DNA of 35,299 nt from Bacteroidota bacterium (GTDB taxonomy: Bacteria > Bacteroidota > Bacteroidia > Palsa-965), in the NCBI GenBank assembly GCA_013298545.1, contig JAAFIA010000050.1:1-35299 (forward strand), given 5' to 3'. The position numbers and the translations under genes were made by a program. The notes beneath the pieces are model-generated. The model worked only from the letters and a program-made list of their open reading frames with translations. It did not search any database and was not told the origin of the DNA. Positions 30,626 through 35,299 of the stretch are shown here, in pieces; the stretch's first letter is position 1, and every line of letters begins with the position of its first letter.

Positions 30626-30813
30626 GTTATGTGATTTTATTTTTTTTTTGCTTCTGTTGGTTTTCGTGCTCTATGACTTTGCTCGAAGGAAAGGGTTTAA
30701 TCGGGTTGCAATTTTTTTTATAAAAGTAGAAATAGTTGTTTGAATGTATTCTTGGTAACGGGTTATTGGAGGCTGTGTTTTGTAAACTCGCTTCGCTCGT
30801 TTTTTTTAGACAT

Positions 30814-30874
30814 GAGATGTGAGACTTGAGACAGGAGACGTGAGACAAGAGACGTGAGACAGGAGACTTGAGAC
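30814..30874. repeat. GAGACNN tandem repeat (period 7)
   Basis: About 8.7 units of seven bases, GAGAC followed by TT, AG, GT, AA, GT, AG, TT. The first unit (GAGATGT) is a variant. It is simple-sequence DNA with no reading frame of interest. Confidence 0.85.
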
Positions 30875-30903
30875 TGCACGGGCTTATGCGCTGTTGGTGA
30901 TTG

Positions 30904-31001
30904 GGTGAATTACTGAATTAGCAAATCGTCAACTCACCAATTCAGTAATTCACCAATTCAGTAATTCAGTAATTCACCAACTCCGTAACTCACCAACTCA
31001 C
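30904..31001. repeat. 16-bp inverted repeat and imperfect tandem AATTCACC/AATTCAGT repeats
   Basis: GGTGAATTACTGAATT (30904-30919) is an exact inverse of 30939-30954, with 19 bases between. To the right the arm's motif recurs as direct copies (TTCACCAATTCAGTAATTCA, then degenerate AACTCACC forms) up to 31001. This stretch ends a few bases before the -7 box of the J-domain gene. Nothing coding is seen in 30626-31019. Confidence 0.8.
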
Positions 31002-31008
31002 CAATTTC

Positions 31009-31016
31009 TATCTTTG
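31009..31016 (+). promoter_or_regulatory. -7 promoter element, 3 bases before the J-domain start codon
   Basis: TATCTTTG is a perfect TAnnTTTG match. The ATG follows at 31020, so the mRNA would begin at or near the start codon. No -33 TTTG is present; repeats occupy that position. Confidence 0.45.
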
Positions 31017-32993: not shown

Positions 32994-33467
32994 ATGGCCC
33001 AAGAAATTGAACGCAAATTTTTACTCCGCAATGCCAATTGGATGTTGGTTGAACAGCGCACTGCTTCGGATTATGTGCAAGGCTATATCGTAAGCGATGC
33101 GCAAAAAACGGTTCGCATACGCATTGCGGGTGAGCTAGGAAAAATAACCATCAAAGGAAAAGCCTTAAAAGGTTCGATTGCGCGTGATGAATACGAATAC
33201 ACGATTCCGAAAGCCGATGCACAAGCCTTACTCAACCTATGTTCCGGCCCTTTGATTGATAAAGTACGCCATGTTGTTCCGTACGGCAAGCATATTTGGG
33301 AAATTGATGTGTTTGCGGGCGAAAATGCAGGATTGGTTGTTGCCGAAATCGAATTGCAAAACGAATATGAAGCATTTGAAAAACCAGAATGGATTGGCGA
33401 AGAAGTAACGCACGACCCGAGGTATGGCAATGCGTCGTTGGTAAGATTTCCGTTTTCGAAATGGTGA
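32994..33467 (+). CDS. CYTH-domain protein (triphosphate tunnel metalloenzyme)
   Basis: The 157-residue product starts MAQEIERKFLLRN, where EIERKFL is the ExExK hallmark of CYTH enzymes. These bind triphosphates inside a beta tunnel with divalent metal. Further basic and acidic residues follow as expected: TVRIRIAG, ITIKGKA, RDEYEYTIP, WEIDVFAGENAGLVVAEIEL. It resembles YgiF-type or YkfB-like inorganic triphosphatases rather than thiamine triphosphatase or adenylate cyclase IV, but the substrate is not settled. It begins just after the lpdA terminator and needs its own promoter, which I could not pick out. The repeat array begins 38 bases after its stop. Confidence 0.9.
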   Translation: MAQEIERKFLLRNANWMLVEQRTASDYVQGYIVSDAQKTVRIRIAGELGKITIKGKALKGSIARDEYEYTIPKADAQALLNLCSGPLIDKVRHVVPYGKHIWEIDVFAGENAGLVVAEIELQNEYEAFEKPEWIGEEVTHDPRYGNASLVRFPFSKW

Positions 33468-33472
33468 GTAAG

Positions 33473-33490
33473 TATTTGATATATCAAATA
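33473..33490. promoter_or_regulatory. 18-bp perfect palindrome
   Basis: TATTTGATATATCAAATA is its own reverse complement. It starts 6 bases after the CYTH stop codon and ends 14 bases before the repeat array. It could be an operator or the edge of an inserted segment. Confidence 0.6.
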
Positions 33491-33504
33491 TATATTTTGT
33501 CTTA

Positions 33505-34070
33505 TGCTCCGCAGGATTTTTACTCCTGCGGAAACAGACACAATTAAATGACTTGATTTTTAATACGAGTAAATGCCGCAGGAGTATAAATCCTGCGGAA
33601 CGTTTCTTTAAATCTTTTGTTGGAATAAGTAGCTCGCATGCTCCGCAGGATTTGCAATCCTGCGGAAATAGCACCAATTAAATATGTCGATTTTTAATAC
33701 GCGTAAATGCCGCAGGAGTATAAATCCTGCGGAACATTTCTTTAAATCTTATGTTGGAATAAGTAGCTCGCATGCTCCGCAGGATTTGCAATCCTGCGGA
33801 AATAGCACCAATTAAATATGTCGATTTTTAATACGCGTAAATGCCGCAGGAGTATAAATCCTGCGGAACGTTTCTTTAAATCTTATGTTGGAATAAGTAG
33901 CTCGCATGCTCCGCAGGATTTGCAATCCTGCGGAAATAGCACCAATTAAATATGTCGATTTTTAATACGCGTAAATGCCGCAGGAGTATAAATCCTGCGG
34001 AACGTTTCTTTAAATCTTATGTTGGAATAAGTAGCTCGCATGCTCCGCAGGATTTGCAATCCTGCGGAAC
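33505..34070. repeat. 134-bp tandem array of REP/BIME-like hairpins
   Basis: Units begin with TGCTCCGCAGG at 33505, 33639, 33773, 33907 and 34041, an exact period of 134. The last is cut after 30 bases. Units 3 and 4 are identical, unit 2 differs by one base (A for G in the AACGTTTC segment) and unit 1 by roughly a dozen. Each full unit holds hairpin A (CCGCAGGATT, TGC loop, AATCCTGCGG) and hairpin B (CCGCAGGA, seven-base loop, TCCTGCGG). With the partial unit there are nine hairpins, all ending in CCGCAGGA/TCCTGCGG. In unit 1 the first hairpin has the form of an inverted hairpin B. There are no variable spacers. The open frames that read through it are artefacts of the repeat. Confidence 0.95.
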
Positions 34071-34090
34071 AAGACAAGCATATAAAATCT

Positions 34091-35299
34091 CTATTTCACC
34101 ACCCGCACCTCAGCGCGCCGGTTCAAGCTTCGTCCTTCTGGATTATCGGCATCGCCACTTGTGTTAGGCGCAACAGGATCATTTTCTCCCGAACCATAAA
34201 CGCGAATGCGGTTGTTCGTAATGCCGTGAATAACCAAATAACGCTGCACAGCCAAAGCACGTTTTTGCGAGAGTTGACGGTTGTACGCTTCAGACCCTTT
34301 GCTATCGGCATAACCACGAACCTCGATTTTGGCTTCTGGATGTTTTTGCATCCATGCCACCACACCATTCAAAACGTCTTGCATGTCTTCGCGGATGATG
34401 GATTCGTCGTAATCAAATAGTACGGGCGAAAAATTTACGCTTTCTAAATTTTTATTCAACTCCAATCCTTCTCCTTCCACAGGCCGCACCGAATTGGAAG
34501 CAATCGACGTAATCGCATCGGGACGTTCTTGACGAATTTCGTTTGATGCCCAAGCTGTGTATAAATTATCAATGGAACTGAGTTTGTTTAGAAACAACTG
34601 CCGCGCTTCTAAACGGTTGGTCATTAAATCCAACAAGGTATCGGCATCAACGGCGTAATCAATGTCGAAGAAATAATTGGTGAGTTCAAATTTTTGGTAA
34701 CTGCGTTGTGTGGCATCAGCGTATTTGGTCAACATCAAATCTTGCAAACAATATTCATACGGATTGTTTCTGAAAAAACTTAGCGTATCACGCACAGTCA
34801 TGTAGCCATCGGCCTCAACCGTGAGCGCGTGGCGGCTGCCGGGCGCGTACGCATACATGATGCTGTCTTTTGCTTGAAGCGTCATGCTCGTATCTTTTCC
34901 GGTTTGCAAATCGCGCAAACGCAGGCGGATGTTTTTACCTTGTGCCAGATCGCTATTGACGCGAAGCTTTACCGTTGGTGTAACATCGGGATACTTCATG
35001 ACGGAATACAAATCGAGATCGCCTTCGCCAAACCGATTGAGTGAAGCATAATAGCCACCATCGTCTGTTGCATTGGGAACATAAAAAATATCATCGCCAC
35101 CATTGTTGATGGGTGCGCCCAAATTTTCGGCGGGCGACCAAGTACCATCGGCCATTTTTTTACTTTTAAAAATATCGTAGCCGCCCATGCTGTTATGCCC
35201 TTCGGATGCGAAATACAAGGTATTTCCATCGGCTGTTAAACAAGGCGCATCTTCGTTGTATTCGGTATTGAAATTGCGACCCAAGTTGCGCGGTTTTTC
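34091..35299 (-). CDS. OmpA-family protein with PD40 beta-propeller repeats, partial
   Basis: The gene runs off the right edge: the frame is open to 35299, so the N-terminus is missing and 402 codons are visible. The first residues (EKPRNLGRNFNTEYNEDAP, LYFASEGHNSMGGYDIF) are WD40-like PD40 propeller blades. A middle region of beta strands follows, then a C-terminal OmpA domain of about 110 residues: VLFDYDESIIRED, IEVRGYADSKGSEAYN, LSQKRALAVQRYL and SLNRRAEVRVVK. OmpA domains bind peptidoglycan, so the protein links the outer membrane to the wall. Similar proteins in Bacteroidota are often part of surface or gliding/type IX secretion systems, but this one is not assigned to one. The stop TAG at 34093-34091 is 20 bases from the repeat array. 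Confidence 0.9.
   Translation of the reverse strand, partial: EKPRNLGRNFNTEYNEDAPCLTADGNTLYFASEGHNSMGGYDIFKSKKMADGTWSPAENLGAPINNGGDDIFYVPNATDDGGYYASLNRFGEGDLDLYSVMKYPDVTPTVKLRVNSDLAQGKNIRLRLRDLQTGKDTSMTLQAKDSIMYAYAPGSRHALTVEADGYMTVRDTLSFFRNNPYEYCLQDLMLTKYADATQRSYQKFELTNYFFDIDYAVDADTLLDLMTNRLEARQLFLNKLSSIDNLYTAWASNEIRQERPDAITSIASNSVRPVEGEGLELNKNLESVNFSPVLFDYDESIIREDMQDVLNGVVAWMQKHPEAKIEVRGYADSKGSEAYNRQLSQKRALAVQRYLVIHGITNNRIRVYGSGENDPVAPNTSGDADNPEGRSLNRRAEVRVVK

Follow-up and report, generated by a model that had tools for sequence, protein, structure and literature searches.

The tandem array that lies between a CYTH-domain gene and a convergent OmpA gene in the window (the whole 35,299-nt stretch of contig JAAFIA010000050.1 that was analysed) is very probably a REPIN (BIME-2-like) cluster, built of tandem non-autonomous inverted REP pairs that belong to a RAYT, most likely of subclass 2.6 (group 5), encoded in the same genome at C77:42242-42814. 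The evidence comes from the organization of the array, from the dispersed copies of its mobile unit and from the REPs that flank the RAYT gene.

Structure of the array

TRF delimits the repeat at 33504-34069, with a period of 134, 4.2 copies, 96% matches and 0% indels, and the direct-repeat spacing within it is 134, 134 and 134. Both analyses agree with the original prediction, made from the sequence of the window, of four full 134-bp units plus a partial fifth at an exact spacing of 134. The nine hairpins of the prediction were confirmed, with one refinement: nine palindromes of the form CCGCAGGA-N7-TCCTGCGG follow each other at exact 67-bp steps (0.01 expected from dinucleotide shuffles), but only the 8-bp ends are common to all of them. 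The loops vary, being TTTGCAA in the first hairpin (H1) of units 2–5, TTTTTAC in H1 of unit 1 and GTATAAA in the second hairpin (H2), and H1 and H2 are two REPs in opposite orientation. The layout can be written as (H1-s-H2-l)x4 + H1, where s is the spacer inside each REP pair and l is the linker to the next. Almost all of the 623-bp gap that separates the end of the CYTH gene (33467) from the end of the convergent OmpA gene (34091) is taken up by the array. The features are as follows; units were delimited by unit comparison and REPs by the palindrome, and lines without a strand sign carry none.

32994-33467, + strand: CYTH-domain gene, upstream of the array (PF01928)
33504-34069: whole probable REPIN/BIME-type cluster, 4 x 134 bp plus partial fifth (TRF, direct-repeat spacing, unit comparison)
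33504-33637: unit 1, 90% identity to the other units, apparent mosaic
33638-33771: unit 2, 1 base off units 3 and 4
33772-33905: unit 3, same as unit 4
33906-34039: unit 4, same as unit 3
34040-34069: partial fifth unit, a single H1 REP
33509-33531, + strand: REP H1 of unit 1; tag TGCT at 33505-33508, loop TTTTTAC
33576-33598, - strand: REP H2 of unit 1, inverse orientation; degenerate - strand tag CGTT
33643-33665, + strand: REP H1 of unit 2; tag TGCT, loop TTTGCAA
33710-33732, - strand: REP H2 of unit 2
33777-33799, + strand: REP H1 of unit 3
33844-33866, - strand: REP H2 of unit 3
33911-33933, + strand: REP H1 of unit 4
33978-34000, - strand: REP H2 of unit 4
34045-34067, + strand: REP H1 of the partial unit
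33666-33709: intra-REPIN spacer, equivalent in each unit; 79-88% identity with dispersed copies over the ~96-bp element
33733-33776: linker between REPINs, common to the units
34091-35299, - strand: OmpA/PD40 gene, convergent, open at the window edge (PF00691, PF07676)

Units 3 and 4 are identical and unit 2 differs from them by 1 base, as had been predicted, while the 30 nt of the partial fifth unit match units 2–4 exactly. Unit 1 departs from the others at 13–14 bases. Of its 14 differences from unit 2, 12 fall in the first half, within the H1 loop and the spacer, against two in the second half (Fisher p = 0.004). Unit 1 therefore resembles a mosaic rather than simply an older copy; a module boundary or gene conversion within the array fits this pattern better than uniform ageing. 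The H2 copies carry degenerate tags (CGTT/TGTT) and degenerate loops, because of which some of them may no longer be RAYT substrates.

Two spurious ORFs, 33237-33677 and 34040-34420, read the palindrome as PQDCKSCG or RRICNPAE, and short “proteins” of this sort annotated in Bacteroidota probably arise from REP sequence. The window also contains, at 30800-31012 and upstream of a DnaJ-like ORF, a composite microsatellite in which 7/14-mer GAGACGTGAGACAG arrays adjoin 8-mer CAATTCAC arrays; about 60 similar places are found across the genome.

The palindrome family and its mobile unit

The pattern CCGCAGGA-N(3-8)-TCCTGCGG has 46 perfect copies in the genome, on 12 contigs, against 0 for the reversed control pattern, and about 8 further copies with one or two mismatches give ~54 REPs in 4.5 Mb, distributed over ~16 loci. 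On a crude ORF map they are found mostly between predicted genes, with 6 clusters between convergent genes; convergent 3′ gaps are common REP sites elsewhere too (PMC3733652). Because the palindrome is absent from 58 relatives (6 of them congeneric) and its main form, sought with a slightly narrower pattern, from 394 other genomes of the phylum, the family has, among the genomes searched, expanded in this species alone rather than being inherited within the genus. In two other clusters, C1 (L047:929-1512, six REPs) and C100 (L052:1006-1437, five REPs), the spacing is irregular and does not form a clean tandem array; the REP at L052:1201 has tags on both sides (a “double foot”).

When unit 2 was used as the query, full-length dispersed matches spanned approximately positions 1–100 of the 134, those of the conserved-spacer subfamily at 79–88% identity. 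The aligned dispersed copies consist of CGCT, a hairpin, a spacer of ~44 nt, an inverted hairpin and AGCG, and the sequence outside these limits is unrelated. The dispersed unit thus delimited is a ~96-bp head-to-head inverted REP pair, that is, a REPIN. At other loci the REP pairs measure 64–98 bp start to start and, since these lengths vary across loci, several REPIN subfamilies coexist. The 44-bp linker of the array, in turn, has no copy at any other locus of the genome: it is local DNA that was amplified together with the REPIN.

Outside the window, 34 REPs could be oriented by the tag alone. Its G, C and T are kept in 33/34, 30/34 and 33/34 of them, respectively, with a preceding C in 25/34, and the loop, read from the tag side, is TTT...AA-like in almost all. 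Folded as DNA, unit 1 forms a single long stem (z -9.0), as a REPIN from C100 does at z -10.2; the - strand of unit 2 reaches z -6.0, and its + strand folds as two hairpins instead.

The RAYT genes

The RAYT gene at C77:42242-42814 is intact and encodes a protein of 190 aa that matches PF01797 and scores 97.3 bits against the REP_Tyr_transpos equivalog NF047646 (NCBIfam; cut-off 80). Its AlphaFold model has a pLDDT of 89.8, and the top fold match is 4er8, the E. coli RAYT with a REP hairpin (E 1e-8), followed by ISDra2 and IS608 TnpA. A phmmer search against PDB sequences gave only chance matches to retroviral capsid chains (E 0.03 and above). The HUH motif residues H61 and H63, and Y145, are invariant across 27 aligned RAYTs, as is W124, which is followed here by K (Q in most relatives), where the signature of the subclass is WQ. 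The NHVH and YIHNNP signatures are present, the relatives are Bacteroidota, and the length compares with a mean of 179 for subclass 2.6; by its signatures, the protein most likely belongs to TnpA-REP subclass 2.6, or RAYT group 5.

Within ~400 bp of the gene there are 4 REPs upstream, in a 228-bp duplicated REPIN, and 2–3 downstream. The flanks are inverted, with CGCT-hairpin upstream and hairpin-AGCG downstream, the inner upstream REPs being the inverted partners in REPINs. The original proposal was that the array represents a REP/BIME family of Bacteroidota, linked to a RAYT and amplified as long units, which should reveal itself by further copies in the genome and by a RAYT gene flanked by the same palindrome. 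The 46 perfect copies favour a REP family, and the RAYT with copies on both sides supplies the expected gene, so that the proposal is supported. On the same contig, a short XRE/HigA-like ORF (L046:2987-3226) begins with a REP at its 5′ end, so that its predicted start is REP sequence; the original start may have been lost or displaced.

A second RAYT, C21 (L061:1281-2083), is 44% identical to the first. It has a different palindrome, CCTCCTCGTTTGCAACGAGGAGG, of which the genome contains 15 perfect cores, four of them next to the gene. Two separate REPtrons are thus present in one genome, each enzyme with its own repeats.

A tag and loop format in related RAYTs

Most of the RAYTs nearest in sequence (57–69%) have diverged forms of this hairpin at their flanks (CCGCTGGATTTGCAATCCTGCGG, CCGCTGCATTTGTAATGCTGCGG, CCGAAGG..., CCGCGGG...), and the GCT tag of these usually faces outward. 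The genomes of the nearest RAYTs contain 2–8 copies each of a degenerate pattern, versus the 46 perfect copies described here. A perfect-stem palindrome scan missed relatives with a stem mismatch, which were recovered by relaxed scans. With a pattern made of a 7-bp stem (one mismatch allowed) around [AG]TTTG[CT]AA[TC], the tag-loop hairpin was found in the expected orientation upstream of 35/96 and downstream of 27/96 RAYT loci, in the wrong orientation at 8/96 and 9/96, respectively, and in 0/660 control stretches; because the 96 loci were all retrieved with a single RAYT as the similarity query, and many of them are related, these counts are non-independent. Across the related loci the stems vary, while the loop and a GCT/GTT-like tag are constant. 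We tentatively propose, as a possibility somewhat short of even, that Bacteroidota subclass 2.6 RAYTs use one REP format, made of a (C)GCT tag and a stem that carries a directional TTTG[CT]AA loop. The loop, rather than GTAG, would be the main element recognised, and would have stayed fixed as the stems diverged between species; the array would then be a recently amplified substrate of this distinct mode of recognition.

Origin of the array and alternative explanations

The RAYT would recognise the single-stranded tagged hairpin, use its HUH histidines and Tyr145 to cut next to it, and would in this way have moved a REPIN into the CYTH–OmpA gap. Direct H1 copies flanking a piece of local DNA could then have allowed the amplification of the H1-spacer-H2-linker module, whether by unequal recombination, slippage or RAYT-driven copying. 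No syntenic empty site was found: among the congeneric genomes only one (L063) has the CYTH gene, at 59% identity, and because its downstream neighbour is different there, it offers no empty-site comparison for the movement of the REPIN.

The dispersed ~96-bp unit, which is short, ends in inverted repeats and carries no gene, could also pass for an ordinary MITE mobilised by a DDE transposase, some copies of which lie close to the RAYT by chance. This is extremely improbable. There are no target-site duplications around the dispersed unit (mean shared word 3.4, versus 3.5 for shuffled pairs), six or seven of the ~54 copies in 4.5 Mb flank the RAYT, the second RAYT of the genome has a palindrome family of its own, and the same tag and loop recur beside related RAYTs elsewhere at the frequencies given above, against none in the controls. 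It is also very unlikely, though less so, that the unit number or the tandem structure itself is an assembly artefact. The true unit number is uncertain because the assembly is fragmented into 154 contigs, and units 2–4 are near-identical over 402 bp; nevertheless, the distinct unit 1 and the private base of unit 2 mean that at least three unit types were resolved, and REP clusters of other unit lengths exist at C77 (228 bp), C1 and C100.

A different question is whether the host retains the array because of a function at this locus, either as a bidirectional terminator or 3′-end stabiliser between CYTH and OmpA or as a gyrase site. REPs act so in other bacteria (PMC2817692, PMC3733652), the array occupies a convergent 3′ gap, the RNA hairpins are strong stems of -16 to -23 kcal/mol each (z about -5), and a terminator scan of the + strand detects four weak terminator-like sites, each made of H2 and its T-rich tail. 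However, shuffled sequences yield 1.7 +/- 1.5 such sites, a single H2 would suffice, the - strand has no T-tract after H1, no Rfam match was obtained at gathering thresholds, and the palindrome is missing from all 58 relatives. Such a role is therefore unlikely and, if it existed, would be an exaptation of the REPIN, compatible with the REPIN cluster described above. In the most likely reading, the convergent 3′ region tolerates the array as a passenger, which may secondarily affect where transcripts end; “passenger array”, originally considered alongside transcription buffering, a gyrase site and an integration hotspot, is the cautious default.

Comparison with known REP systems

RAYT/REP systems are well-studied domesticated bacterial transposases, and the experimental work cited here, including the in vitro cleavage assay of TnpA-REP cleavage and recognition (PMC8266576), concerns GTAG-tagged proteobacterial REPs. 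RAYTs are defined by inverted flanking REPs, and in the basic BIME module an inverted REP stands between two direct ones (Nunvar, PMC2817692). REPINs were defined, and their tandem clusters reported, by Bertels and Rainey (PMC3116915). The array has tandem modules of opposed REPs with a linker shared within the cluster, as in REPIN and BIME-2-type clusters. CRISPR and attC/integron readings were set aside, since the units are near-identical inverted hairpins with spacers that are conserved, not unique.

The genome of Pseudomonas fluorescens SBW25 (PMC3116915) likewise has a dispersed inverted REP pair, with a largest ordered cluster of four REPINs plus one REP and clusters also beside RAYTs; its REPs, however, number in the hundreds and form three groups of other sequences, whereas here there are ~54, with a CGCT tag and a subclass 2.6-type RAYT. 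The BIME-2 elements of E. coli and the BIMEs of Stenotrophomonas (PMC2817692) share with the array the tandem alternation of inverted REPs, the fixed alternating spacers, the cluster-specific inter-REP segments and the presence of the same REPs around the RAYT. They differ in their unrelated sequence, in the GTAG tag and, in E. coli, in a bulged stem. Gyrase and IHF binding are known for E. coli BIMEs (PMC2817692).

Two tagged REP super-families, GTAG and CGTC, have been described (PMC3733652). The REPs of this genome do not carry GTAG or GTGG 5′ of the hairpin, the tag being CGCT (25/34) or NGCT. The CGTC-tagged REPs are similar in their non-GTAG tag and have also been reported in Bacteroidetes, but their stems start with A/T pairs and no dedicated transposase was found for them (PMC3733652); here the tag is CGCT, the stem opens C-C-G on a C/G-rich foot, and a RAYT adjoins. 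A further comparison is with the REPs of subclass 2.6, or RAYT group 5, which, in the available part of its description (PMC6006769), is mostly from Bacteroidetes, lacks GT[AG]G and had its REPs found by manual inspection. That account agrees with ours in the Bacteroidota origin, the NH[LIV]H and YIH[QN]NP motifs and the presence of non-GT[AG]G REPs both at the gene and elsewhere in the genome. The REPs described in the same part of the paper are called atypical and are weaker, and are set apart by that description from those found here, with their CGCT-type tag, strong ~10-bp stem and directional TTTG[CT]AA loop.

The array locus is an ordinary REPIN cluster of a known kind, and the added value lies in the tag-loop definition of a poorly described REP class. 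The genome provides a clear-cut Bacteroidota example that looks recently active, combining a RAYT and ~54 REPs with a tandem cluster and with REPINs whose spacer is conserved. By the tag-loop consensus, the “atypical” REPs of RAYT subclass 2.6 can be defined from sequence, which makes these REPs searchable and the rule of RAYT recognition testable.
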